Source: Betaproteobacteria bacterium (lineage in GTDB: Bacteria; Pseudomonadota; Gammaproteobacteria; Burkholderiales; Burkholderiaceae_A). Taken from it: DNA of 43,355 nt. The DNA lies in contig RFRK01000002.1 of NCBI GenBank assembly GCA_009924525.1, forward strand, positions 1-43,355. The letters are read 5' to 3'. The notes beneath the pieces were generated by a model, which worked only from the letters and a program-made list of their open reading frames with translations, had not been told where the DNA came from and made no database searches. Position 1 is the stretch's first letter; each line of letters opens with the position of its first letter. Both the position numbers and the translations under genes were made by a program. Shown piece after piece: positions 23,088 to 43,093 of this stretch.

Positions 23088-23420
23088 CTACTTAAACTTA
23101 TAGTAGGTGTCGTTGAGATATCGGCCAACGTGCTGAATCTCTTCCTCAAACCAGCCCGAATTCGTGCGGCTGTTGCAAAACTCGATCATGCCCCTCAGCT
23201 TGGCCACACTATCAGCTTTACGAAATAAATCCGAGTACAGCTGTGTCCCATCTTTATCAGGAAACATGCTGTTATGACACGATACGCAGCGCGGATCGTG
23301 AAGCTTTTTTCCACTTGTCGGATTACCCTTCGGAAATGGGTTGGCGCTCGCAGACTGCGGTCCCGATACAGTCACAACGCAAAGCAGAACTGCACCTAGA
23401 GTTAACATCGCTGGCTTCAT
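23088..23420 (-). CDS. small monoheme cytochrome c
   Basis: Signal peptide and heme motif CVSCH; RBS AAGGA before ATG 23420; downstream of soxB. Confidence 0.8.
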   Translation of the reverse strand: MKPAMLTLGAVLLCVVTVSGPQSASANPFPKGNPTSGKKLHDPRCVSCHNSMFPDKDGTQLYSDLFRKADSVAKLRGMIEFCNSRTNSGWFEEEIQHVGRYLNDTYYKFK

Positions 23421-23477
23421 GCAAACAGTTCCTTTGAGAGACACGAAACGAGAAGCGGGCCGAAACCGTTTTGTGGA

Positions 23478-25200
23478 TCAACCAGCCATACCAGGATTAT
23501 TCTTCAATCCGATTAGCCGAGGAAGATTCAGACGTCGCGGGCTTATCCGCTTTTTCGACTTCAGCCAGGTCTCAACCACCTCCCAGATCGGCTCGCCCTT
23601 GGCGCCCTCAGCCACCGGCGCCCAGCCGGCCACCTTATAGGTCTTTTTCGGATCAATCAGCTGGCCTTTTAGCCGCATATCACTGATACGGCTGCCCGCC
23701 TTGCCGCCAGGCTCACAGGCATAGGTCAGGCCACCCACACGCACCATGTCGCCGCCTTGCTGGTAGTAGGGATCAGGATTAAACAGGTTATCGCAGACAT
23801 CCTCGAGGACTGTCTTAATAAATTCGCCCGTCATCTCGGTAAGGGTTGTAAACGGATACGTAATAGCCGTCTGATCCATCACGTGTTCGCGGGTGATGGT
23901 CTGGCCCGACAAAATGCTGGTTCCCCAACGAAAGCCTGGGGAAAATGCGATATCCGCCCCTTTCACCTCAATAAGAGCGTCGCAAATCAGCTGATCGAAG
24001 GTGCCATTAAAGTTACCGCGTCGATACAGTAGGCCCTCGGTGACCGCCAGTGGCTCTTCAAGTTTCGTTTTATAAGGCGCCCGAATGCGATCAATTAAGG
24101 CCTGCATTTCTTTATCGGCGGGTAGCATGTTGGCAAATACCGGCAGCAGTGAGTATTTGAAATCCACGACCTTTCCGTCGCGAACATCAAGATCCATCAC
24201 GCCAAGAAATTTCGAATTGGAGCCCGCATTGGTGACGAGGGTTTTTCCGCCAGCGTTGGATACCACCACAGGCTGCGGTACGCCATCATGGGTATGACCA
24301 CCAAAGATCGCATCAATACCGCGGACCCGCGTGGCCATTTTTAGATCAACATCCATGCCATTGTGCGAAATGACGACCACTACCTTGGCGCCTTTGGCGC
24401 GGACTTCATCAACCATCTTCTGCATGTTGTCGTCTTGAATCCCGAAGGTCCAGTCGGGCACCATATAACGCGGGTTAGCAATGGGTGTATACGGGAAGGC
24501 TTGTCCGATCACGGCAACTGGAATGCCGTTTTGCTCACGAATCACATAGGGCTTGAAGACCGGATCACCGAAATCAGCGGTCTTTACATTCTGGGCAAGA
24601 AACTCAACATTGCCTGCGAAATCCTTTTTGATGATCTCTTCAACCCGCTTAGCGCCCAGCGTAAATTCCCAATGGGGGCTCATCATGTTGACCCCAAGCA
24701 GCTTGCAGGCATCCACCATATCCTGGCCGTTAGTCCAAAGTGCGGTGGCCGACCCCTGCCAGGTATCGCCGCCATCCAGTAAAAACGCGTTCGGCCGATC
24801 GGCCCGCATTTTCTTAACCAGCGTCGCGAGGTGGGCAAATCCGCCAACCTTGCCATAGGCGCGAGCCGATTTTTCGAAATCTAAATAAGTGAACGCATGC
24901 GAAAGGGCTGTCTTCGCCGGTACTTTGTGGAACTTTAGGAACTCCTCTCCTACAAAATGCGGAGGCCGACCGTTCATCACACCGAGACCGATATTGACAC
25001 TCGGTTCACGAAAATAAATCGGCAGCAGCTGGGCGTGGCAGTCGGTGAAATGCAGAAAACTCACATTGCCTGCTCTCGGAATGTCGTAGAGCCGCTCGCC
25101 CTTGGCGGCTGCCTGTGCCGCGCTCGCCCAAGAGCCAAACATGCCGCAGGCAGAAACCTGCCGCCATAACATTCAAAAACTCTCGCCGGTTTAATTGCAT
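23478..25200 (-). CDS. soxB: thiosulfohydrolase SoxB, with apparent 1-nt frameshift in the signal peptide (~25153-25162)
   Basis: GNVSFLHFTDCHAQLLPIYFREPSVNIG..GGDTWQGS; N-terminal Tat sequence MQLNRREFLNVMAA lies in another frame from the body. Confidence 0.9.
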
Positions 25201-25228
25201 GGTGAGCCCTTAATCCTTCGTAGAAATA

Positions 25229-25258
25229 AAAAAAGCCCGGCGATACACGCCGGGCTCA
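25229..25258 (-). terminator. predicted intrinsic terminator between soxX and soxB
   Basis: Minus strand AGCCCGGCGTGTATCGCCGGGCT (25234-25256) followed by TTTTTT. Confidence 0.85.
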
Positions 25259-25267
25259 TCGGTCCGC

Positions 25268-25891
25268 TTATTTATTGACAGGTGAATTCGGATCCAATAG
25301 CAGCGCCATTAAATCCTTCATTTGGGCTTCGGTCAGAATTCCCTGCTGGCCAAAGCGCGGCATATTGGTGCAGGAATTAAAGGCCTTGGCGTTATAAATC
25401 TTGCCCCAGGTGTATTTCACGATCGCCTCTGAGTTGCCGCGCAGCTTGCCGTAGTTATACAGACTTGGGCCAAGCGTGCCGTGGGAGATCTCTTCTTTGC
25501 TGATCTGATGGCAGTTGTAGCAGTTTCCGCCATTGGCCGATCCGGGCTGATCGCTGTAGGTGAAACCCGCACCACTTTGGGCAATGCGTTCGCCGACCTT
25601 CCAGTCGCCGAGAAACTTTCCATCGGCTGGATACTTGATGGTCGCAGCCTCTGCAGCCTCGAGTTTACGAACCATCTCGCCCGATAAGGGGGCACTCGCG
25701 TACTCAGCGCGAGAACAGGCATCGTTGATTGCGTCTTGATTGATACGCTCTTTCTTGGCAATGCCCCGCTCCACGAAGGATCGACTCACTGCGTCTTTAG
25801 CCATTTTTTCCAGCTCAGCACTTGAATAGGTTGTAGCACAGCCAACCAGCACTAATGCGCTTAAGCCAGTAATCACAATTAATTTTTTCAT
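25268..25891 (-). CDS. soxX: sulfur oxidation cytochrome c SoxX
   Basis: CYNCHQ heme motif, GTLGPSLYNYGKLRG...YTWGKIYNAKAFNSCTNMPRFG. Confidence 0.93.
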   Translation of the reverse strand: MKKLIVITGLSALVLVGCATTYSSAELEKMAKDAVSRSFVERGIAKKERINQDAINDACSRAEYASAPLSGEMVRKLEAAEAATIKYPADGKFLGDWKVGERIAQSGAGFTYSDQPGSANGGNCYNCHQISKEEISHGTLGPSLYNYGKLRGNSEAIVKYTWGKIYNAKAFNSCTNMPRFGQQGILTEAQMKDLMALLLDPNSPVNK

Positions 25892-25906
25892 TTGACTCTC
25901 CTGGGC

Positions 25907-26710
25907 TTAGCGCTTAATCGTGGGGGCGAGCGACTTCACGCCCTTTCCGGTGACACCCATATAGCTGGAGAGCGCGATCGTGACATCCGATCCAAACTCC
26001 ACATATGGAAAGCGCTGCTGACGAAAGCAGTCCTCAAGCCGCTTTTGCATCGGCCAGAGCTGGGAGTTCGACACGCGGTAAGCGGGCCAAGAGGTGAAGG
26101 CCCTTCCAGCCGGCTCATTTTTGGTCAGGTTGGGCAGCACCTGTAATCGAATACGCTTGCCATCCTCAGCATGACAAGTTGCGCAGGCAAAGTCATAGGG
26201 TCCGGCGCGATAAAAAAATATCTGCTTACCCATTTCATACATACGACGCTCTTCGGGATGGCCCTGCGGCACATTGACTGGCATGCCCCGCGACTCCGAA
26301 GCGATCCAGGTCACCAGCGAGACGATATCCCTGTGGTCATCCCGATCATAAACCGCAGCCTTCGCCTTGATGCCCTGATGCTGCTCCATGCAGGTTACCA
26401 GCCGTGTCTCCAGGTCTTGGACTTTTTTGACATCATCAAAGTAACGCGGCAGCGAGACATAAGCGCCCTTTACGACGCCGGGGCCGAGGCCGAGATCACA
26501 TTTTTCAAGCGAAGCGTTTTTCGGGCCCCGCTGCCTCTTCCAGAGATCCTCACCGCGGGCCTCCCAGAGTTCTGCGGGATTGCCATCGGCCACCATTTCT
26601 CGATAACGATCGATCGCCTTCTCGGCGTCGGTCTGAGCGACGGCGGACATTGACCCTGATGCGCCAAGCGCCAGCGCCAAAATCGTCCCTTTTAGCGTCT
26701 TGCTAAGCAT
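25907..26710 (-). CDS. soxA: sulfur oxidation c-type cytochrome SoxA
   Basis: CATCH heme motif, LEDCFRQQRFP heme-ligand Cys; first heme site absent (monoheme type). Confidence 0.94.
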   Translation of the reverse strand: MLSKTLKGTILALALGASGSMSAVAQTDAEKAIDRYREMVADGNPAELWEARGEDLWKRQRGPKNASLEKCDLGLGPGVVKGAYVSLPRYFDDVKKVQDLETRLVTCMEQHQGIKAKAAVYDRDDHRDIVSLVTWIASESRGMPVNVPQGHPEERRMYEMGKQIFFYRAGPYDFACATCHAEDGKRIRLQVLPNLTKNEPAGRAFTSWPAYRVSNSQLWPMQKRLEDCFRQQRFPYVEFGSDVTIALSSYMGVTGKGVKSLAPTIKR

Positions 26711-26784
26711 TACTGCCTCCCTATTTTTAACAACTTATTGCCACCGCCACACGAAGATGACGGTGGAGCACTCAAACCAAAGAC

Positions 26785-27093
26785 TCAGCCGACATTGGTC
26801 TCGTCGGTGCGCTTTTCTCCGCGGTTATCCACCCAGGTCACGGTGACTTTATCGCCCGCCTTGCCGCGCGCCTTGAACTGCAGGAACGGGTTTTTAGACA
26901 CCGCGGGGCCCCATTGGGCCGTCATCACCGTTTTTCCATTAACCTGGCATGTGACCTCTTGAATAAACCAGGCGGGAATTATTTTTCCGGAAGCATCTTT
27001 ACGGGTTCCGGTCTCCATTTCGTGAGCCATCAGGACGCGAGCATCAATCACACCATCTGCGGCCCGGGCACGAATACGCATTGGGTCTGCCAT
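26785..27093 (-). CDS. soxZ: thiosulfate oxidation carrier complex protein SoxZ
   Basis: KVLMAHEMETGTRKD-like block, FIQEVTCQVNGKTVMTAQWGPAVSKNPFLQFKARG. Confidence 0.94.
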   Translation of the reverse strand: MADPMRIRARAADGVIDARVLMAHEMETGTRKDASGKIIPAWFIQEVTCQVNGKTVMTAQWGPAVSKNPFLQFKARGKAGDKVTVTWVDNRGEKRTDETNVG

Positions 27094-27140
27094 AACAATC
27101 TCTCCTTAATTCGACAATGTTAGTTTGACTGCGGCCGCCA

Positions 27141-27608
27141 TTAACCGCCGCAGCCGCCGAGGGTGACCTTGATTTCTTTTTTGGCCATAAAAAACTTTCC
27201 GTCGGCTTTAACGATCGCGATCACATCAGAGCTCTGACCCATCTTGACCCGCATGGAAACATCAGGCAAGGAATCGGGTGCGAATTCATAAAAGCCCGCC
27301 ATCATGGCCGGATTCTTTTCCACCAAGAGCGCAATCATCTCGGTCTTCGGCAGCTTTGAGGCGATGCCTACGGGCACGACCGCACCGTTTTCGGCGATGT
27401 CAGGCGAGGTGATCGCGATATCTCCAGCTCCCGGGGTGCCGGCAATACCCATGGCCTTCAAAGTATCCGGAACATTTTTGGCATCAAACCAATCTTTTTT
27501 CCAAGAGGCCATTGCCGGATTTGCGGCAAAAAAGCCGATCGATGCAAGGGCCGAATACAACGCGGCACCGCCACCGGCCTTCACAACTGTACGACGTGAA
27601 ACGTTCAT
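27141..27608 (-). CDS. soxY: thiosulfate oxidation carrier protein SoxY
   Basis: C-terminal swinging-arm GGCGG; Tat-like N-terminus SRRTVVKAGGG. Confidence 0.95.
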   Translation of the reverse strand: MNVSRRTVVKAGGGAALYSALASIGFFAANPAMASWKKDWFDAKNVPDTLKAMGIAGTPGAGDIAITSPDIAENGAVVPVGIASKLPKTEMIALLVEKNPAMMAGFYEFAPDSLPDVSMRVKMGQSSDVIAIVKADGKFFMAKKEIKVTLGGCGG

Positions 27609-32381: not shown

Positions 32382-33563
32382 CTAAGCAGCGCGGGACTCA
32401 AGGGCCTCGATGGCGGGAAGTCGCTTGCCTTCTAAAAACTCTAAGAATGCGCCACCACCAGTTGAGATATAGCCAATCTGCGCAGCGATATCAAACTTGG
32501 CAATGGCCGCCAATGTATCGCCTCCGCCAGCAATCGAAAATGCCGGGGAGTGTGCAATTGCAGCCGCAAGCATTTTTGTGCCGCCTGCGAATTGTGGAAA
32601 CTCAAACACGCCAACTGGGCCATTCCATACAATCGTGCCGGCATTAGAGATCATCGCCGAGAGATGCGCAGCGGTCTTTGGGCCAATATCCAGGATCATG
32701 TCGTCGTCTGCTACTGCTGTAGCGGCAACCTTGTTAGCGCGAGCCTGAGCGGAAAATTCATTGGCCACCACGACATCCTCTGGAATCGGAACCTGCGCCC
32801 CGCGTTTTTCCATCATATCCATGATGCGCCTGGATTCGTCTATCAAATCAAGCTCAGCTAAGGACCGGCCGATCGGCAGCCCCTTGGCCGCCATAAAGGT
32901 GTTGGCGATTCCACCACCAACAATTAGCTGATCTACCTTTTCAGCAAGCGAGCGCAAGATGGTGAGCTTGGTGGAGACTTTCGAACCGGCAACGATGGCC
33001 AACAAGGGGCGTCGGGGATGCTCCAGCGCAGATGCCAGGGCATCCAATTCAGCGGCCATCAGGGGGCCAGCGCATGCAACTGGGGCAAAGCGCGCAACGC
33101 CATGGGTGGTCGCTTCCGCCCGGTGGGCCGTGCCAAATGCATCATTGACATAGATATCGCATAAAGCGGCGATTTTCTTTGCCAGGGTCTCATCATTTTT
33201 TTTCTCACCAGGATTGACTCGGCAGTTCTCCAATAACACGATCTGGCCCGCTCCAACCTTAAAGCCGCCCTCGACCCAATTTGAAATCAAGGGCACCTTT
33301 CGGTTCAATAACTGTGCAAGCCGCATTGCGACCGGTGCAAGCGAATCTTCGGGCTTTAGCTCGCCTTCCGTAGGACGGCCCAAATGGGAGGTAACCATGA
33401 CTGCCGCGCCGCGATTCAGCGCGAACTCAATTGCTGGCACAGAGGCCCGAATTCGCGTGTCGTCAGTAATTGCTCCGGCATCATCTTGTGGAACATTTAA
33501 ATCAGCACGAATCAACACCCGCTTTCCTGCAAGCGGCAGATCAGTCATGCGCAAAAACTTCAT
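32382..33563 (-). CDS. pgk: phosphoglycerate kinase
   Basis: [46 protein letters not shown]. Confidence 0.97.
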
Positions 33564-33628
33564 CTTCTTCCCTTCTCACGACAGTGGCCGATGGCGCCCC
33601 GGCGCCAAACCTGCCATTGTAATGAACC

Positions 33629-34501
33629 CTAGGCCCGACGCTTCAGGTCCATCAAACGAAGAATCATTGGTGTGAAGATAAGCTGCATGGCGAGGCCCAT
33701 TTTTCCGCCCGGTATCAATAGTGTGTTAGGCCGCGTCATCATGGAATCATGAAGCATTGACAACAAATACGGAAAGTCAATTCCCTTGGGGTTCGCAAAT
33801 CGAATTACCACCATGCTCTCATCGGCGGTCGGAATATCTCGGGCGATAAAGGGATTCGAAGTGTCTACAGTTGGAACTCGCTGAAAATTAACATGTGTTC
33901 TAGAGAACTGCGGAACAATATGATTGATGTAATCTGGCATGCGACGAAGAATCGTATCGACAACTGCCTCTTGCGAATAGCCACGCGTGGTCTTATCACG
34001 CAGTAATTTCTGAATCCACTCTAAATTAATGGTCGGCACAACACCAACCAAGAGATCAACATGCCTTGCAACATTGACTTCTGGCCCGACATAGCCGCCG
34101 TGCAGCCCCTCGTAGAACAATAAATCCGCCGATGCAATCATGTCCTGCCAGGCGGTGAATGTGCCCGGCTCGCATCCGGATTCCGCCGCGCCAGCAGCAT
34201 CATGGATATAACGACGCACACGGCCAGCTCCGGTCTGGGCAAATGTTGAAAAGGTCTCCTCCAGCTCCTTTAAGAGATTCGCCTCGGGACCAAAGTCGCT
34301 AAAGCTTGGGTTTCCCAGCTGCGCCTGGCGCTGGATTTCAGCACGCATCGCCTGTCGATCAAAGCGATGCATGGAGTCGCCTTCAAGAATTTGTGCCTGA
34401 ATGCCCTCACGCCGAAAGATATGTTGAAAACTGCTCATCACCGAAGTGGTTCCCGCCCCGGATGAGCCCGTAATTGCAACAATCGGATAACGAACCGACA
34501 T
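33629..34501 (-). CDS. prk: phosphoribulokinase
   Basis: AITGSSGAGTTSVM P-loop, EGDSMHRFDR, FYEGLHGGYVGPEVNVARHVDLLVGVVPTINLEWIQKL. Confidence 0.96.
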   Translation of the reverse strand: MSVRYPIVAITGSSGAGTTSVMSSFQHIFRREGIQAQILEGDSMHRFDRQAMRAEIQRQAQLGNPSFSDFGPEANLLKELEETFSTFAQTGAGRVRRYIHDAAGAAESGCEPGTFTAWQDMIASADLLFYEGLHGGYVGPEVNVARHVDLLVGVVPTINLEWIQKLLRDKTTRGYSQEAVVDTILRRMPDYINHIVPQFSRTHVNFQRVPTVDTSNPFIARDIPTADESMVVIRFANPKGIDFPYLLSMLHDSMMTRPNTLLIPGGKMGLAMQLIFTPMILRLMDLKRRA

Positions 34502-34545
34502 GAAAACCCTTCCTAGGGAATGTGGCCACGCCCAGTATCCCCCGG

Positions 34546-35604
34546 TTATTGAAACAAAGAACGCTCCTTGAATAACGGCGAGGAGTAGCGCTCATCAATG
34601 CCGTTATCGTGCTCGTGATGGTAACGCTCCAGGCGCTCACACTCTGAACGCGCACCTAAAATCAACGGTACGCAGTCATGGATCTGAGTCGGTTCGATAT
34701 CTAATATCCGGTGCCGGCCTGTGGTGGCCCGGCCCCCGGCCTGCTCCACGAGCATCCCGATTGGCGCTGCTTCAGTCAATAAGAAGCGGTGGCCGGCTCG
34801 CTCCTGCTCGCGAGGGTAAAGCGCCACCCCACCCCGCATCAAAATCCGGTGCAGATCCGCCACGATGCTGGCACTCCAGCGCAGATGAAAATCTCGGCCC
34901 CGGATATCGGCACTTCCCGCCTTGCATTCGGTGATGTAACGCTGCACAGGCGACTCCCAGAGACGCTCGCGGCCAACATCGATGGCGAACTCGTCGGCGC
35001 CATCTGCGATCTTTAGTCCCGGATGAGTCAAAAAAAACCTGTCGGACTCAAGATCCAAGGTAAATCCGTGGGTGCCACTGCCGATAGTGATGACCAGCAA
35101 AGTCGCCGGACCGTAGATCGCATAGCCGGCCGCAATCTGAGACCGGCCGGACGGCAGTGCATTGCTTGTCGCTGACGCTGGGTGAACGCTTGCAGGCCAG
35201 ACTCCAAAAATCGATCCAGCAGTGGCATTGATGTCAAAATTCGCCGCGCCCTCTAGAGGCGAGATTGCAACCCAAAAAGGCCGTGCGCTCTGGGTCTTAA
35301 GGGCCAGAGGGGCCTGGGTCTGAAAGACTGCCTCGGCAAGACCCTGGCCCGACACCGCATCAAAAAAAGTAGCGGTGGCTTGATCTAGGCGTGCCAACTC
35401 AGACAGCGGCCCCGGATCGCTGGGCCGAGTGGCGACGCTGCTTGTTGGCTGCCCTGCCAGCCGGCCTTGGGCGGAATCCGCCGAGACGATCCGTACCGCT
35501 TTCGCGATGGCAGTAATCAAGGCGACAAGGTCCTGGCCGTGGGCCAGACCATTCAGGCCTTCCCCCAAAAAGTCATCAAGTGTGCGAAGCATCGCCTCTG
35601 ACAT
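34546..35604 (-). CDS. fbp: fructose-1,6-bisphosphatase class 1
   Basis: VAISPLEGAANFDINATAGSIFGVWP; GGVALYPRE; EAAPIGMLVEQAGGRA. Confidence 0.92.
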   Translation of the reverse strand: MSEAMLRTLDDFLGEGLNGLAHGQDLVALITAIAKAVRIVSADSAQGRLAGQPTSSVATRPSDPGPLSELARLDQATATFFDAVSGQGLAEAVFQTQAPLALKTQSARPFWVAISPLEGAANFDINATAGSIFGVWPASVHPASATSNALPSGRSQIAAGYAIYGPATLLVITIGSGTHGFTLDLESDRFFLTHPGLKIADGADEFAIDVGRERLWESPVQRYITECKAGSADIRGRDFHLRWSASIVADLHRILMRGGVALYPREQERAGHRFLLTEAAPIGMLVEQAGGRATTGRHRILDIEPTQIHDCVPLILGARSECERLERYHHEHDNGIDERYSSPLFKERSLFQ

Positions 35605-35644
35605 CAGATATTTGATAAGTTAAGGTAACAGCTTTTCGAGCAGA

Positions 35645-35663
35645 TCATAAGTTTTGCTTATGA
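35645..35663. promoter_or_regulatory. putative LysR/CbbR-type T-N11-A inverted repeat overlapping the cbbR start
   Basis: TCATAAG-TTTTG-CTTATGA perfect 7-bp arms containing T-N11-A. Confidence 0.5.
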
Positions 35664-36595
35664 AAAATCTCAGTCTTCGGCAAATTCGAATCTTTTCGGC
35701 TGCAGCGCGGCATCTGAGCTTTGTCCGCGCCGCGGAGGAGCTGCACCTGTCTGCACCCGCCGTATCGATGCAGATTAAAGAGCTGGAAGGGGAAATCGGC
35801 TCGCCTTTATTTCTAAGATCGGGACGAAAAGTGGAGCTCACCTCGGCCGGCGAGTACTTCTGGGTCTACGCCAAAAAGGTGCTCAGCACACTGGCCGAGG
35901 CCGAGGCGGTGATGCAAAAACTGAAAGGTGCTGAAGCTGGAAATTTAAAAATCGGTCTTGTGAGCACCGCAAAATACTCGGTGCCTCGCATGCTCGGACT
36001 ATTTCGGGAGGCCCATCCTGGAATCCAAATTTCGCTTAATGTTTGTAATCGGGAAACGCTTGTTTCACTGCTGCGCGACGGAGAAATTGATCTTGCGGTC
36101 ATGGGCCGGCCCCCGAAAAATCTGGATACCCGGGCGGATGTCTTTGCCCACCATCCCCATGCCTTCATTGCGTCTCCGCAGCATCCATTGGCGGGGATGT
36201 CCGACATTCAGGCTGAAGCGCTCAACCACGAAGAGCTGATCTCCCGCGAAGAGGGCTCGGGCACTCGGGCCATCATGGAGACCTATATCACCCAACACCG
36301 GGTCAGCCCCACCATTTCGATGGAGATGTCGAGTAACGAAACCATCAAGCAGGCAGTTATTGCCGGATTGGGCATCTCCTTTGTATCGCTGCACACGGTC
36401 GGATTAGAAATAGCGCATGGACAGCTTGTGGTGCTGAATATGGAAGGCACACCCGTACGTCGGGCCTGGCATGTGGTCTCGCTAACTCAGCGTCACCTAT
36501 CGCCGGCCGCAGAGGCCTTTCGCGTCTTTATGTGCGAGCGTGGTGCACAATTACTCGCAGAACAATTTCCTAACCTTGAGTCGCCCCGCCTATGA
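35660..36595 (+). CDS. cbbR: LysR-family regulator, CbbR
   Basis: N-terminal LRQIRIFSAAARHLSFVRAAEELHLSAPAVSMQIKELEGEIGSPLF; divergent from fbp-prk-pgk. Confidence 0.9.
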   Translation: MKNLSLRQIRIFSAAARHLSFVRAAEELHLSAPAVSMQIKELEGEIGSPLFLRSGRKVELTSAGEYFWVYAKKVLSTLAEAEAVMQKLKGAEAGNLKIGLVSTAKYSVPRMLGLFREAHPGIQISLNVCNRETLVSLLRDGEIDLAVMGRPPKNLDTRADVFAHHPHAFIASPQHPLAGMSDIQAEALNHEELISREEGSGTRAIMETYITQHRVSPTISMEMSSNETIKQAVIAGLGISFVSLHTVGLEIAHGQLVVLNMEGTPVRRAWHVVSLTQRHLSPAAEAFRVFMCERGAQLLAEQFPNLESPRL

Positions 36596-36951
36596 CGCCT
36601 CCCGTTCGCTGGCTTACCGAAAAAATCGCAATCGCGGGCCAGATCAGTCCCGAGCATCTGCAAAGCCTTTCCGAGTTGGGCTTTAAGAGCATCATTTGTA
36701 ATCGGCCGGATAACGAATATGGCCCCGGACAGCCCAGTGCTGAGTCAATTCGCGAGCGGGCCGAGTCTATCGGTCTGCAGTTCGCGCTTCTTCCCGTGAG
36801 TGGAGATGGCGGTACGGCCCGCGACGCCCAAGAGATGGGCAAGCTACTCTCGAGCCTGCCCACACCGATTCTTGCTTACTGTTACTCGGGCGGCCGTTGC
36901 ATGGCGTTAATCGGCAACGCTGCCCGAATGGGTCTGCCCATTCCCGCCTAG
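36592..36951 (+). CDS. TIGR01244-type / DUF442 sulfurtransferase-phosphatase-like protein
   Basis: GQISPEHLQSLSELGFKSIICNRPDNE...CYSGGRCMAL; ATGA overlap with cbbR. Confidence 0.82.
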   Translation: MTPPVRWLTEKIAIAGQISPEHLQSLSELGFKSIICNRPDNEYGPGQPSAESIRERAESIGLQFALLPVSGDGGTARDAQEMGKLLSSLPTPILAYCYSGGRCMALIGNAARMGLPIPA

Positions 36952-37928
36952 AGAACTCCGACCAGCGGCCTGCCCTCTCGCGACCAGAGATACAACGAGC
37001 CATCGTAGAGCCTGACATTGGCGTTACCCAGTAACTCGGAAAATACAAACCAAGCCCCGGAGGCGAGATTGCCACTGTTACAGTAGCTGATCGCCGGCGC
37101 CGTGGCATCAACACCCAATAGCTTTGCCAGTGTCTGGTACTGCGCGCGGGTTAGAAAATACTGTGCGCCCTGCACGCTACGAAACATCAATTCGGGCGGC
37201 AGAGATTTTGCGTTAGCGATATGGCCATATTGATTCACATAAGACCGTTTGGCGAGCCCATAAAACGCTGCAGACTCTCGACCATCAATCAATTGCGGCC
37301 GTGATGATTTAGAAGCCTGCTCCACATCGGCCGAGCCTGCAATTAACGTAGCGCGATAGCCCTTGGTAGCCCAGTTCCCCGGTGCAGGCGGGGCTACGCC
37401 GGCCGGCTGAAGCACCCGGCCCGAGACCAGCCAGCCCGCACTGCCGCCATCAAGTACCGCCACCCGATCCTCTCCGAAGACCTTCAAAGTCCAGTAAAGT
37501 CGCAAGGCTTCGACCACATCCGAGGGGTCCAGCCCAAGCGCCGCGATCACAATCGGCTTATCGCTGCGCAATCCTGCAGCGCGCAGCCGCGACTCCAGCT
37601 CTTCGCGATCGGGGATCAGATATTTGGTCTTCTGACCATCAAAGAGTTTTTCGCTGCGCACTAAGGCGTAATCCACTAAAAGCGCGCCAGGAATTACCCC
37701 GCCCACTTCCTCGACCTGGACCTTGCCGGTTTTCTTCTCCACCGAGGTCACGGATTGGCGGCTGTAGCTTTTGGTGTCAGAGCGCACATCCACCAGCTGA
37801 ACTTGGGCCTGATTGGCTGCAAGCCAATCCGCAGTCACGATTGGGCCGGGTAGCTGCTGCGCAAACACCAGCGAGACCCCTAACGCAGTGAATGCTGCGA
37901 TCAATAATTTTGAAATGCTCCTCATCAC
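36948..37928 (-). CDS. exported two-domain rhodanese-like sulfurtransferase
   Basis: Signal peptide; VTADWLAANQAQVQLVDVRSD; active Cys in SYCNSGNLASG; GTG/ATG start overlapping the upstream stop. Confidence 0.9.
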   Translation of the reverse strand: MMRSISKLLIAAFTALGVSLVFAQQLPGPIVTADWLAANQAQVQLVDVRSDTKSYSRQSVTSVEKKTGKVQVEEVGGVIPGALLVDYALVRSEKLFDGQKTKYLIPDREELESRLRAAGLRSDKPIVIAALGLDPSDVVEALRLYWTLKVFGEDRVAVLDGGSAGWLVSGRVLQPAGVAPPAPGNWATKGYRATLIAGSADVEQASKSSRPQLIDGRESAAFYGLAKRSYVNQYGHIANAKSLPPELMFRSVQGAQYFLTRAQYQTLAKLLGVDATAPAISYCNSGNLASGAWFVFSELLGNANVRLYDGSLYLWSREGRPLVGVL

Positions 37929-38551
37929 CTATCCTTTTTGGTTTCTTGCTTTGAAAGCCGGGCTAAGGTTTTCATCAAATCAATCGGTCTCTCACAGATG
38001 ACATCCCAGCGCCGATCCGTGAGGTGCGATACACAGCCGGTTGCCCGTTGCCGTTGCTGATGCCAGCGATATCGCCGTTGATGCAGGGCCTGAATCTCTG
38101 GGCGATATAAATGCACCATGGCGCAAAGCCATCGGCCAACCGGCGATAGACGGCCCCGCAGCTGACAGTGAAACCGCTGGAGGGCCGATTCCAGATGCTG
38201 TGGCGCTACCCAGTGCTCCCCCGTCACCCATTGGTTGGTGAGGAACAATCGTGTTGGTAGGCCCTTTGGGTTCATCGAAACACCAATCAAATGATGAAAT
38301 CGATGTCGGCCGCCGGGTCGAGTAAACACATGGAAGTGGCCATGCTCATCATCGGAATGCTGAGCACCACTGTGGGCGTGATAGTAAAACTCACTGTTGT
38401 GTGTCACATCGACCGCATCATGGGCAGGGTAATGCTGCCACTGGATAAATTGCTGGGCGCCACACAGGGCCGCGATGCTGAGATTTGATCGTTGGTGTGC
38501 CAGGCGCTGCATGACACCCATGATCGACTCCGCACACTGCCTTGGCTGCAT
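37925..38551 (-). CDS. DUF6969-like protein of unknown function
   Basis: WQHYPAHDAVD...FYYHAHSG...EHGHFHVFTRPGG..HHLIGVSMNPKGLPTRLFLTNQWVTGEHW; family name from memory; coupled to the preceding ORF by TAATG. Confidence 0.72.
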   Translation of the reverse strand: MQPRQCAESIMGVMQRLAHQRSNLSIAALCGAQQFIQWQHYPAHDAVDVTHNSEFYYHAHSGAQHSDDEHGHFHVFTRPGGRHRFHHLIGVSMNPKGLPTRLFLTNQWVTGEHWVAPQHLESALQRFHCQLRGRLSPVGRWLCAMVHLYRPEIQALHQRRYRWHQQRQRATGCVSHLTDRRWDVICERPIDLMKTLARLSKQETKKDR

Positions 38552-38781
38552 TACTCAGACTTTTTCCGTTTTGGGCCGCAGGGATTGCTCGGTCCACAAG
38601 GATTCGCAGAGCGCTTTTTTGGGCCGCAGGGATTGCTCGGCCCGCAGGGGCTGCTTTTTCGGCTTTTCGGAGCGCAGGGCGATCCGGCCTTTGCATCCTG
38701 CGCAGAGACCGCTGTCGGAGCAACAATGCCAGTGGAGAGCGCAAGTGCCAACGCCACGAGTTTTTGAGATGGTTTTTTCAT
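38551..38781 (-). CDS. small exported basic Cys-repeat (PCGP) protein
   Basis: Signal peptide ending AVSAQDA then five PC[AG]P motifs: SPCAPKSRKSSPCGPSNPCGPKKRSANPCGPSNPCGPKRKKSE. Confidence 0.82.
   Translation of the reverse strand: MKKPSQKLVALALALSTGIVAPTAVSAQDAKAGSPCAPKSRKSSPCGPSNPCGPKKRSANPCGPSNPCGPKRKKSE
38569..38640. repeat. 24-nt perfect direct repeat (two copies, 48-nt period) within the PCGP protein gene
   Basis: TTTTGGGCCGCAGGGATTGCTCGG at 38569-38592 and 38617-38640. Confidence 0.9.
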
Positions 38782-38809
38782 AGTGCTTTTTTCCTTGTTA
38801 AGATTTCAA

Positions 38810-39421
38810 TCATGCAGAAGACTTTACGGGCCGTGAGTCGCCAGCAACTGCCTCAATCGCAGTAACGGGTCCACCGAAGCGGCGCTCCAAGGCACTGCCG
38901 CCAATAAAGACAGCCACTGCGGCAATCACCATCGCGATATTCACCCAAAGGCTCGACACGCCAAGCGCCGCGGGCAAGGTATCGCCAATGGTCACTTCGC
39001 CGAGAGTGGTCAAGGATTCAATCTGTTCATAAGCCCCCGCAAACACCAACGTGCCAACGATCAGTCCCGCCAGAAATACGCTCGCATCCAGTCGGCCCGA
39101 CATCAAGCCCACCACTGAGGTGCCTGGGCAATAACCGCCCACAGCAAAGCCAGACCCGATGAGGATTCCGCCGATTGCTGCTGCTCCGAGTAAAGCCGGA
39201 GGAACAAACAGGCCCTCTAGGCTAATCAGACCAAACCATTCCGAGAGCATCAGCCCGACCGAAGTCAAAACAATGGCGGTGAACATCACCTTAAAGACCG
39301 ACCAGTCGGCGAGACGAAACTGAGCCGTCAGCTTGTAAGGGCTGCCAAACCCAGCGTTTTCGAGAACAAAACCAAAGGCAAAGCCCAGCACGAGCCCAGA
39401 GAGAATTTCAATCGGCGTCAT
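38810..39421 (-). CDS. YeeE/YedE (TsuA-like) sulfur-compound transporter, half 2
   Basis: FGFVLENAGFGSPYKLTAQF; GSGFAVGGYCPGTSVVGLMSGRLDA. Confidence 0.92.
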   Translation of the reverse strand: MTPIEILSGLVLGFAFGFVLENAGFGSPYKLTAQFRLADWSVFKVMFTAIVLTSVGLMLSEWFGLISLEGLFVPPALLGAAAIGGILIGSGFAVGGYCPGTSVVGLMSGRLDASVFLAGLIVGTLVFAGAYEQIESLTTLGEVTIGDTLPAALGVSSLWVNIAMVIAAVAVFIGGSALERRFGGPVTAIEAVAGDSRPVKSSA

Positions 39422-39933
39422 TATCGAACTCCCCGCACCAGCCGGCTCACCACCAGACCCGCTGCAAAAAACATTATTAGGAATGTGAAGCCTGCAAGGC
39501 TAAGCGTAGCGGCACCGGAGAGCCCCATGCCACTGGTGCAGCCGGCTGCAATACGTGCGCCCAGGCCCGCAAGCAAACCACCAGCAAAGGCAGTGATCAG
39601 GCGACGGGGTGTGCCCAGTGTTTTCTGGCCATCGATTTGAAATCGAATCCTGCGCGCAAGCCGCGCGGAAACATATGCGCCGAGCGCCACACCGATCATC
39701 TGCCAGGTAATCCAGGCGGAAAAGATGCTCTCCTCGGCGATTGGGCCGAGATAGCTTTCTTCGCCCATGAAGGCTGGAACCCCCGATGCCAACCAGGCGG
39801 TGACGCGCGTGGTGAAACCTGTTGCACCCAGCCCGTGGCCGGTGATTAAAAAGGTGAAGAGCAGAACCAGCCCAAGGGCAATACCAGCCCACAGGGGATG
39901 CCAGAAGGGTTTGGGTTGCGTCTCAAGATGCAT
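39421..39933 (-). CDS. YeeE/YedE (TsuA-like) sulfur-compound transporter, half 1
   Basis: FAGGLLAGLGARIAAGCTSGMGLSGAATLSLAGFTFLIMFFAAG. Confidence 0.92.
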   Translation of the reverse strand: MHLETQPKPFWHPLWAGIALGLVLLFTFLITGHGLGATGFTTRVTAWLASGVPAFMGEESYLGPIAEESIFSAWITWQMIGVALGAYVSARLARRIRFQIDGQKTLGTPRRLITAFAGGLLAGLGARIAAGCTSGMGLSGAATLSLAGFTFLIMFFAAGLVVSRLVRGVR

Positions 39934-40267
39934 GCGTTACCCCCTTACGTGATTTTTTTTGCGAGCAAAACAGTCCGTGAAGCGCCAACAGCATGCTACC
40001 CACCCGAGGGTCCCCGATGGCGTAATAAACATACTTGCCATCCCGACGGGTCTTCACCAGGCCCTCTTCGCGCAATACCCCAAGCTGCTGCGACAGGGTC
40101 GGCTGCTCAATGCCAGTACAAGACTCCAAGTCGCTGACACAACATTCGCCCTCGGTCAGCTGACACAGCAAAAGCAGCCGATCCTCATTGGCCATGAGCC
40201 GCAGAAAGCCTGCCGCCCGGCCTGCGGCTAAGCGCAGGGCACTGACCCCCATGGCGCGCTCTGACAT
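39923..40267 (-). CDS. ArsR-family regulator (BigR/SqrR-like candidate)
   Basis: ECCVSDLESCTGIEQPTLSQQLGVLREEGLVKTRRDGKYVYYAI; RBS AAAGGAG. Confidence 0.9.
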   Translation of the reverse strand: MSERAMGVSALRLAAGRAAGFLRLMANEDRLLLLCQLTEGECCVSDLESCTGIEQPTLSQQLGVLREEGLVKTRRDGKYVYYAIGDPRVGSMLLALHGLFCSQKKSRKGVTHAS

Positions 40268-40303
40268 CGGCTTTACTCCTTTATTAAAACTTAAGTAAAA
40301 AAC

Positions 40304-40332
40304 ATTATATATTTAAATATAACGTAAGTCAA
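40304..40332 (-). promoter_or_regulatory. sigma70-type promoter with palindromic operator in the spacer for the ArsR-YeeE operon
   Basis: Minus strand TTGACT-N17-TATAAT; 14-bp palindrome TATATTTAAATATA at 40308-40321. Confidence 0.8.
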
Positions 40333-40442: not shown

Positions 40443-41075
40443 CTAGTGAATTGTGGTGGAAAACGATGGGCTGCCGAAGCCGGGGCTAACGCAGCGCCAT
40501 CGGGCCTCGCGTGTTCCAATCGCAGTGATCAAGCCCGACTCTAGCGAAAGTCTGCGAACCACAACCGTTAGCTTATTCCGTTGAAGGTGATAAGTACCAA
40601 TGACTGCCTGTTCAGCAGGAAAAGCGCTTTGCTTCACCAAATTCAAATCTCGCGACAGGATGACCATGCCATTGGAATCGAACTTAATTGCACTGGAGAG
40701 TTCGACCTGCCGAACCGGAACACTGCAAGTATTGAATATGCTAGCGCGGAGCAGTTCTCCCATTGAAATACCCAGCGCGCCCGGCACGTAGTTCTGAATA
40801 TCAACGACATCCGGCACAACATACGCGAGCTTGTTGCCGGGTCCGATTTCAACGCCGTCCGGGGTCGGCAGGCAGACTTCTTTGGAAACCTCGGTCAGGA
40901 GCTTGCGCATATCAATACGGGCAAGCGCCTCCTCGCGAGTAATTCTGCAATCCTCGATCGGGTGATCCTTCAGCAGCACATTGTCAATGCGCTCAACCCC
41001 AGTTGCACAGCCCGAAAGCAGAATAGCCCCCGCAATAAGCGCCAGGCTCAGGCGGCGTGCAGGGGCCTTGAACAT
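40443..41075 (-). CDS. FlgO-like lipoprotein
   Basis: Lipobox LLSGC; VILSRDLNLVKQSAFPAEQAVIGTYHLQRNKLTVVVRRLSLESGLITAIGTREARW resembles FlgO C-terminal half. Confidence 0.7.
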   Translation of the reverse strand: MFKAPARRLSLALIAGAILLSGCATGVERIDNVLLKDHPIEDCRITREEALARIDMRKLLTEVSKEVCLPTPDGVEIGPGNKLAYVVPDVVDIQNYVPGALGISMGELLRASIFNTCSVPVRQVELSSAIKFDSNGMVILSRDLNLVKQSAFPAEQAVIGTYHLQRNKLTVVVRRLSLESGLITAIGTREARWRCVSPGFGSPSFSTTIH

Positions 41076-41085
41076 CGGAAGAAGC

Positions 41086-41736
41086 TTAGCGGGTCAGCTG
41101 TACGACAGGCGCGGGCTTGGGTTTGTCCACCAAAGAGCTGATGAACTTATCCCGCAAAAAACGTGTCTGCGATGTCGAGACGACCTGCCCACTTGCGAGA
41201 TCCAGCACGCGAACACTCACCAGAATTCCGTCGACAGTCAACGTGTAAGTGCCCGTGACGACATTCGCGGCAGACATCGATCCACGCAGACGCTTCAGTT
41301 CCCGACTCAGCGAGAACTCGCCTTCTTCATTGATGATCAGGTCTCGGGTCATGCGCATATCGGTGACATTCCAGCCGCGAATCTGCAGCTGATGCATAAA
41401 ATGCTCACCCATCAGACGGCCCAGCGACGAAGTCTCGCCCAGGTTATTCAGATCCACAAAGCTGGTGATCACAGTAGGACGGGTGCGCACTTCTGGGTGC
41501 GCATTGCGCTCGATTTGCTCGGTGAGGAACATCATGCCGCTATTGAACATGCCGGCGGGCGTACCGCTACGCTGCACGACGATCGGCTCATAGGGAACGC
41601 TGTAACGGGTCAATGCGGCCTCGCGGGTGGAGATCAGCGCCGACTCTTCCTTCACCACCGGCGCGGCAAGGGCAGACTGGAGTGCTACAGCCGAGACTGC
41701 AAGCGTCAGTGTTGTTTTGATTGCAAAGGTTTTCAT
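41086..41736 (-). CDS. FlgO-family envelope protein
   Basis: VITSFVDLNNLGETSSLGRLMGEHFMHQLQIRGWNVTDMR...EFSLSRELKRL...VVTGTYTL; signal peptide. Confidence 0.8.
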   Translation of the reverse strand: MKTFAIKTTLTLAVSAVALQSALAAPVVKEESALISTREAALTRYSVPYEPIVVQRSGTPAGMFNSGMMFLTEQIERNAHPEVRTRPTVITSFVDLNNLGETSSLGRLMGEHFMHQLQIRGWNVTDMRMTRDLIINEEGEFSLSRELKRLRGSMSAANVVTGTYTLTVDGILVSVRVLDLASGQVVSTSQTRFLRDKFISSLVDKPKPAPVVQLTR

Positions 41737-42178: not shown

Positions 42179-43093
42179 CTATCGGACCCTGCCCCTAGAC
42201 TCCTTGATCAGCCGATCGTGGGTCGGCTGAATCGGCCGAGCATTATTGGGAAAGAGCCGAGCAAAAGTTCGTAGCTGCTCGGGCGAGACTTCGACCGGCT
42301 CCTTAAACACGAACCACTGGACCCCCTCTGAGCAGGGGGGAGTAGTCAACGAGCCCATATAGTTAAAGAGCTGACGCTCTTTAGGCAGAAACCGATTCAG
42401 GTCTATAGAGATATCCGCGGCTGAAGCCATGGCCTGGCCCGCCACCAGGGGGATGTGATTCCAGAGGGCCTGTATAAATGGATTCTCCGCGCCGACGGTC
42501 ATCAGGACCGCCACTACTGCGAGCGCCCCCTGCGCATCGCGGTGCACCAGGTGGGCCACCATTTCGAAGGATTTGCCCTCAATCTTCTCTTCTGCTGGGC
42601 GATGAAAATGGAATTGAACCAGCTGATAGGTTTTCGTTGCAAAGGTCAGGCTGCCGCCCGCCGAGTAGGCGACCTCAAGGGTGTGGCCATTGTTGGCGAC
42701 CGAGAACCGTGATGGCGCGTAGTTAAACCGAAGCTCCGGCAGATCAACGCCGATGCTGCCGCGAATATCAATTGGGGATTGTTGCTTACCGCTATCGCAG
42801 AGCCCGTAGCTGGCGTGCAATTTGCCCCAGTTATCCGGCCCGTCTGCACCGTGATAGCTCCAGTGCGGCATCGGTGCCGGCTTTGCCGCCCGCTTTGTTG
42901 GAGCAGCCTTTTTCGGCGGCGGATCAGCAGCAGGTGCCGCAGCCGGCGGCGGCGGTGGCGCCGGAGGCATTGCAGACGGAGCGGGGGCAGCCGCGGGCTT
43001 CACATCTGCCGCAATCACCGAGCCCGAGCTCAGTACAACTGCAGCCAGTAGCGACAGAAGTTGGGGTTGTACACGGTTGGCGCGCAACATCAT
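42179..43093 (-). CDS. alpha-type carbonic anhydrase, exported, with Pro/Ala-rich linker
   Basis: QQSPIDIRG, VQFHFHRPAEEKIEGKSFEMVAHLVH, TTPPCSEGVQWFV. Confidence 0.94.
   Translation of the reverse strand: MMLRANRVQPQLLSLLAAVVLSSGSVIAADVKPAAAPAPSAMPPAPPPPPAAAPAADPPPKKAAPTKRAAKPAPMPHWSYHGADGPDNWGKLHASYGLCDSGKQQSPIDIRGSIGVDLPELRFNYAPSRFSVANNGHTLEVAYSAGGSLTFATKTYQLVQFHFHRPAEEKIEGKSFEMVAHLVHRDAQGALAVVAVLMTVGAENPFIQALWNHIPLVAGQAMASAADISIDLNRFLPKERQLFNYMGSLTTPPCSEGVQWFVFKEPVEVSPEQLRTFARLFPNNARPIQPTHDRLIKESRGRVR

Follow-up and report, generated by a model that had tools for sequence, protein, structure and literature searches.

A cysteine-repeat peptide gene and a DUF6969 gene form a conserved pair in sulfur-related operons of Proteobacteria

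A six-gene operon with a Cys-repeat peptide

This report concerns two adjacent genes, one encoding an exported 76-residue Cys-repeat peptide and the other a DUF6969 protein, in contig RFRK01000002.1 of a betaproteobacterium (assembly GCA_009924525.1). The whole stretch of DNA analysed, 43,355 nucleotides in length, is called the window. It was found that the two genes belong to a run of six open reading frames (ORFs) on the minus strand (36948-40267): arsR (39923-40267), two YeeE-type genes (39421-39933 and 38810-39421), the peptide gene (38551-38781), the DUF6969 gene (37925-38551), and a gene for an exported two-domain rhodanese (36948-37928). The ORF calling was home-made, and many of the source records are metagenome-assembled genomes (MAGs). 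A first-pass annotation, made from the letters of the DNA, had described six genes on one strand with overlapping junctions, and all the positions and junctions were recovered. The arsR gene overlaps the first YeeE-type gene by 11 bases (39923-39933), TAATG joins the YeeE-type genes at 39421 and the peptide gene to the DUF6969 gene at 38549-38553, and GTGATGA joins the DUF6969 gene to the rhodanese gene. A 28-base gap 5′ of the peptide gene holds a ribosome-binding-like AAGGAAAA.

By inspection, the peptide has a Sec-type signal-like N-terminus followed by a Cys-rich core with five PC[AG]P motifs in a chain rich in Lys and Arg. The five motifs had been noted before, with a mature length of about 46 residues; cleavage by signal peptidase after AVSA would instead leave about 49. 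The peptide belongs to no Pfam family and has no NCBIfam match above the cut-off; these searches gave no match to any known bufferin family (DUF2282 or other), and the Pfam search none to the SoxY family (PF13501). Its partner, previously called DUF6969-like, is a genuine DUF6969 protein, matching PF22308 over nearly its full length (176 bits, E=7e-52; the gathering cut-off is 27 bits). Compared with the nearest relative (L002), the peptide gene has 20 synonymous and 3 replacement codon changes (dN 0.018, dS 0.52), and the DUF6969 gene has a dN of 0.074 and a dS of 0.468. Because of these values, both are real, constrained genes. A dN/dS of about 0.03 shows strong purifying selection on the peptide, and this ratio, together with the conservation described below, rules out a spurious ORF.

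The two YeeE-type proteins are half-length Sulf_transp proteins with one conserved Cys each, as in the YeeE/YedE (PmpAB) importers. A split of YeeE into PmpA and PmpB halves has been described (PMC11582611). Two halves had been expected from the sequence and both are present, but their order had to be corrected: the first gene encodes the PmpA-like C-terminal half (Sulf_transp positions 176-308, E=4.5e-22; single Cys132) and the second the PmpB-like N-terminal half (positions 5-149, E=5e-13; single Cys98). The rhodanese (Pfam E=1e-18) has a single Cys283.

The ArsR protein is of the ArsR/BigR type. Its best NCBIfam match is BigR, at 89 bits and under the 155-bit cut-off, which makes it a relative and not an equivalog. 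It has the ArsR fold and, as in persulfide sensors of the BigR/SqrR kind, a cysteine pair, C35 and C101, which lie 66 residues apart and are conserved in 7 of 7 homologues compared. The spacing is that of the dithiol pair C34/C100 of Acinetobacter baumannii BigR, whose operon is yeeE-yedE-pdo2 and includes a persulfide dioxygenase (PMC7315123). Upstream of arsR lies a sigma-70-like promoter-like sequence, TTGACT-17-TATAAT (40302-40332, minus strand), and TTGAC and TATAAT-like elements stand at the corresponding position in L002 and another relative, L003. A 9-bp inverted repeat (40302-40310 and 40317-40325) overlaps this site and is a candidate ArsR operator.

Distribution of the peptide-DUF6969 pair

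Is the pair found elsewhere? A search for relatives with DUF6969 gave 80 loci. Such a sample favours loci close to the query, and PF22308 was therefore also run against whole genomes; it is present in 20 of the 399 searched from the phylum and in 15 of 199 from the order. Neither whole-genome sample was chosen for the peptide. In the phylum sample, 17 of the 20 genomes have a Cys-repeat ORF linked to DUF6969; as for the other three, both genes lie at contig edges in one (G081), the peptide lies elsewhere in another (G016), and none was found in the third (G163). In the order sample, a Cys-repeat ORF lies within 1.5 kb at 11 of 13 new complete DUF6969 loci. Thus, it is not the case that DUF6969 consistently occurs without such an ORF.

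When the 80 relatives, the first whole-genome sample, and four plasmid loci are combined into 104 loci, an exported Cys-repeat ORF lies near DUF6969 at 86 of them (four, L032, L070, L076, and L117, were entered into this count by eye). The first-pass annotation had proposed the conservation of the pair as a check, and the pair does recur, spanning alpha-, beta-, and gammaproteobacteria. Nearly all of the script-detected Cys-repeat ORFs (73 of 78) lie at most 500 bp upstream of DUF6969 on the same strand. As a background, the same contigs were examined beyond 2 kb from DUF6969; these 706 kb contained three exported Cys-repeat ORFs of the strict type, one of them a true repeat protein. The double motif NPC[AG], seen at least twice, occurs in 13 of 20 genomes with DUF6969 versus 22 of 379 without (Fisher p = 9e-11), and 19 of these 22 belong to one family (f40). 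A strict co-occurrence of repeats and DUF6969 can be rejected, as one family and a few further genomes have NPC-repeat cytochromes and lack DUF6969. Three loci (L157, L154, and L155), in genomes without DUF6969 or MNIO, have NPC[AG] repeats fused to a SoxA/TsdA-like cytochrome c, which is an undescribed architecture in its own right.

The cores are of several types. PC[AG]P cores are found in betaproteobacteria of a Thiomonas-like kind, and other types are NPCAAK/NPCAG (often fused to cytochrome c), KCAPKC/KCGAK, NPCGL, and a lipoprotein type, ACAAGC/CCAAEGC. The repeat type follows the DUF6969 phylogeny, with 15 changes against a shuffled mean of 43.7 on a quick tree that has several long branches. 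These results leave little doubt that the peptide and DUF6969 function together as a pair. Leaders can be recognised within a given type, examples being LSIAALTAAT, SMLAVAGGLA, and NTLLFGA...DHxxH, and this sequence conservation suggests that the partner may recognise the leader. A comparison of dN/dS between leader and core gave mixed results overall.

Other genes accompany some pairs. At three loci of one genus (g171; L105, L106, and L108), an NPCAANPCAAK peptide is encoded some 1.2-1.5 kb from DUF6969 on the other strand, a gene of the FGE (formylglycine-generating enzyme)-sulfatase domain lies between them, and an FGE gene also adjoins DUF6969 at L174. On the Burkholderia glumae plasmid plas1 (L167), a KCAPKC peptide gene and DUF6969 are followed by genes for a methylthioadenosine (MTA) phosphorylase and two arsenosugar-type glycosyltransferases; glycosyltransferase-like neighbours were also seen at L069. 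An arsenic or sugar link of the KC-type repeats is possible. In a Chlamydiae MAG (L038), a DUF6969 protein with an N-terminal hydrophobic segment is encoded beside a divergent membrane protein carrying CAPC...PCHPC...NPCNPCG, and the pair may thus exist in a membrane-bound form as well.

DUF6969 as a candidate maturation partner in sulfur handling

An alignment of 86 diverse DUF6969 members revealed seven invariant residues (H58, H60, G71, H72, H74, N106, and R160), and the near-invariant ones include H40, E69, H70, H87, W108, and D161. The histidines follow the pattern HxH...EHGHFH...H, from which it appears that DUF6969 probably has a metal-binding site. An AlphaFold2 model of the protein is confident (predicted local distance difference test score, pLDDT, 95; predicted template modelling score, pTM, 0.92), and in this model HxH and EHGHFH lie at strands 2 and 3 of five strands, with helices after them. 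No fold match better than E=0.43 was found in the PDB or better than E=0.11 among viral structures. A sequence search of the PDB gave only E=0.26 at best and thus no relative, and in Pfam searches with the DUF6969 members only DUF6969 itself was consistent, any other family being hit by one member at most. On these searches, the assignment of DUF6969 to a known fold or family was rejected. No paper in the open-licence literature that was searched names DUF6969.

The protein of the window is predicted to be cytoplasmic, and 99 of 100 DUF6969 proteins have no signal. The single protein with a hydrophobic N-terminus is the chlamydial one, so that DUF6969 as an exported protein was ruled out. Together with the confident model, the location and the conserved HxH, EHGHFH, H87, N106, and R160 point to an enzyme-like partner. 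It is about an even chance that DUF6969 covalently modifies the peptide. The linkage to the peptide and the cytoplasmic location would also suit a chaperone without enzymatic activity, which would keep the precursor reduced and with its signal, perhaps together with a bound metal ion, until Sec export. This seems improbable, as the set of seven invariant residues, in which His predominates beside Asn and Arg, suggests catalysis or metal ligation rather than a binding surface.

What would the peptide carry? Neighbouring genes around the 104 loci were counted by tblastn. A YeeE-type gene was found no more than 5 kb away at 57 loci, every one of which has the peptide, and rhodanese genes are found at 59 loci. 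This co-occurrence had been suggested as a check by the first-pass annotation. Of the 86 loci with the peptide, 69 have a gene linked to sulfur, counted as YeeE, rhodanese, a SoxA/TsdA cytochrome, or a phosphatase-like sulfurtransferase; of the 18 loci without it, 3 do. The repeats are also found fused to sulfur-related domains: NPC and KC repeats to the SoxA-TsdA_cyt-c domain (L107, L154, L058, and L183), and, downstream of YeeE at L060 and L066, NPC repeats to a sulfurtransferase domain of the phosphatase-like type. On the pSymA plasmid of Sinorhizobium medicae, the order is sulfurtransferase, YeeE, an unannotated Cys-repeat ORF, and DUF6969. In one genome (G357), a second locus free of DUF6969 has the order rhodanese, YeeE, and NPC peptide.

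The cytochrome fusions, the ArsR cysteine pair, and the sox genes of the window lend independent support to the earlier suggestion of a sulfur carrier, and sulfur handling is likely to be the main role of the pair. Under this interpretation, DUF6969 would remain in the cytoplasm and meet the precursor prior to export, and its His-rich, probably metal-binding site would modify or load the cysteines of the peptide, with the signal peptide serving partly as a leader. After exit via Sec, the peptide would be a many-site thiol carrier in the periplasm and would acquire sulfane sulfur from thiosulfate or polysulfide, via the exported rhodanese in the window and via SoxA/TsdA-type cytochromes in other lineages. 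It would then hand the sulfur to the PmpAB/YeeE importer, and ArsR would keep the operon repressed until persulfide links C35 and C101. I give this whole chain, in which a multi-thiol carrier of sulfane sulfur leaves through Sec and has a partner in the cytoplasm that is dedicated to its maturation and probably metal-dependent, with no MNIO involved, a probability of roughly 0.45.

Several points weigh against it. The sulfur role is read from guilt by association, and there are DUF6969 loci that have no sulfur genes, including a bufferin-type MNIO operon. No Cys-repeat ORF was found in reach at some DUF6969 loci (Ferrovibrio, SAR324, and G163). About 20 genomes, most of them from one family, have repeat-cytochrome proteins and no DUF6969, which is therefore not always needed. 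In the largest group of peptides, leader and core are about equally constrained, so that no recognition leader is singled out.

The main rival is a bufferin-like copper buffer, in which DUF6969 would modify or escort Cys-repeat peptides chelating periplasmic copper or another soft metal, and the sulfur genes would adjoin since sulfide and copper stress coincide. Bufferins, too, are Cys-rich peptides exported by Sec, and fusions to cytochrome c and FGE occur among them (PMC12452194); SoxA/TsdA cytochrome fusions and FGE neighbours are likewise found at DUF6969 loci. At one locus (L116, G366:C4), DUF6969 lies inside a complete bufferin-type operon with an MNIO (PF05114, E=1e-103), DUF2063, DoxX, and a KCGAK peptide. 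However, MNIO was found within 5 kb at only 1 of the 104 loci and is absent from 10 of 20 DUF6969 genomes, among them that of the window (G000, 93% complete), for which the peptide was accordingly rejected as an MNIO substrate. Moreover, YeeE and rhodanese are the dominant neighbours, and the window operon is headed by a BigR-like and not a copper-type regulator. The copper buffer is thus considered rather unlikely. The metal buffer and the RiPP (ribosomally synthesised and post-translationally modified peptide)-like precursor, both named in the first-pass annotation beside the sulfur carrier, may also fit, given the DUF6969 copy in the MNIO operon. Near that operon lie an MTA-phosphorylase-like gene, a DUF3641 radical SAM gene, and a sigma factor gene, and two possible peptide-modifying systems stand there at one peptide.

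Another alternative separates the two proteins: DUF6969 would be a cytoplasmic metalloenzyme transforming imported persulfide or thiosulfate, and the peptide an unmodified periplasmic carrier. Consistent with this, a protein of the cytoplasm whose histidines resemble a metal site is encoded downstream of a sulfur importer, and the A. baumannii BigR operon has its persulfide dioxygenase in a comparable place (PMC7315123). On the other hand, the peptide accompanies DUF6969 even at loci without YeeE or rhodanese, and the repeat type tracks the DUF6969 tree; therefore, a peptide partner fits better than a small-molecule substrate, and a separate enzyme appears less probable than the copper buffer.

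As a broader and tentative proposal, on balance somewhat doubtful, DUF6969 may found a fold-distinct class of peptide-maturation metalloenzymes acting on Sec-exported Cys-repeat precursors. The products would be dedicated multi-site carriers of sulfane sulfur at the thiosulfate or persulfide level, the repeats having also been joined in evolution to SoxA/TsdA cytochromes and sulfurtransferases. If true, multi-site carrying of sulfane sulfur would be a role that no peptide of this sort is known to have. The hand-over of sulfur from periplasmic oxidation to YeeE-type importers has been described as poorly understood (PMC11582611), and the pair offers candidates for such a carrier and for its maturation protein, in tractable rhizobia as well as in many sulfur oxidisers. 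The uncharacterised DUF6969 family, with its confidently predicted fold and its strictly conserved His-rich site, is now tied to a likely substrate, which makes its function directly testable. The results also suggest at least one partner-protein family besides MNIO for bufferin-like exported Cys peptides.

The rest of the window is as follows. A Sox thiosulfate-oxidation cluster on the minus strand (23088-27608) comprises a small CxxCH protein without a Pfam match (23088-23444), soxB (23478-25172), a cytochrome in the place of soxX (25268-25891), soxA (25907-26710), soxZ (26785-27093), and soxY (27141-27608). Adjoining the sulfur operon are Calvin-cycle genes (32382-36595) for phosphoglycerate kinase, phosphoribulokinase, and fructose-bisphosphatase, with a divergent LysR gene that is CbbR-like by position. 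The sox and Calvin-cycle genes point to the setting of a thiosulfate-oxidising autotroph. A convergent gene for a phosphatase-like sulfurtransferase domain of the BLH/TIGR01244 type (36592-36951, plus strand) neighbours the operon and is kept in L002 and L004. Upstream of the operon lie genes for two FlgO-domain proteins in tandem (40443-41736, minus strand), and a carbonic anhydrase gene is located at 42179-43093.

Comparison with known systems

The combination of an exported Cys peptide with DUF6969 is new with respect to the searched literature, and it belongs to a kind already known, that of a Cys-rich exported peptide with a dedicated cytoplasmic partner. By analogy, the putative carrier and its maturation partner would correspond to a bufferin and its MNIO. 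In the bufferin/MNIO RiPPs (BufA/BufB/BufC; DUF2282, DUF692, and DUF2063), a short Sec-exported Cys-rich precursor is likewise encoded beside a cytoplasmic partner with metal-site-like residues, and cytochrome c and FGE associations are found on both sides, according to the 2025 MNIO landscape paper (PMC12452194), the consulted parts of which contain no description of the peptide-DUF6969 pair. In contrast to the MNIO and DUF2063 of bufferins, the partner here is DUF6969, without a fold match in the PDB, and the main context of the pair is YeeE/rhodanese sulfur genes.

The SoxYZ protein of the Sox pathway is periplasmic and carries sulfur on Cys, both as the peptide would, and is found near SoxA-type cytochromes and YeeE/SoxT importers. 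SoxY has a single carrier Cys in its GGCGG tail. SoxYZ is a folded pair with this one Cys, whereas the peptide has at least five in a short, probably disordered repeat, and the window has its own SoxY and SoxZ besides the peptide. Metallothioneins are short Cys-rich chains too; the peptide differs from them in its export, the regular PC[AG]P spacing, the dedicated partner gene, and the sulfur-gene context. The BigR operons of A. baumannii and Xylella (bigR-blh) and the PmpAB/SoxT importers resemble the window operon in the ArsR cysteine pair 66 residues apart and the split YeeE halves (PMC7315123, PMC11582611), while the place of the persulfide dioxygenase is taken in the window by the peptide, DUF6969, and the exported rhodanese.

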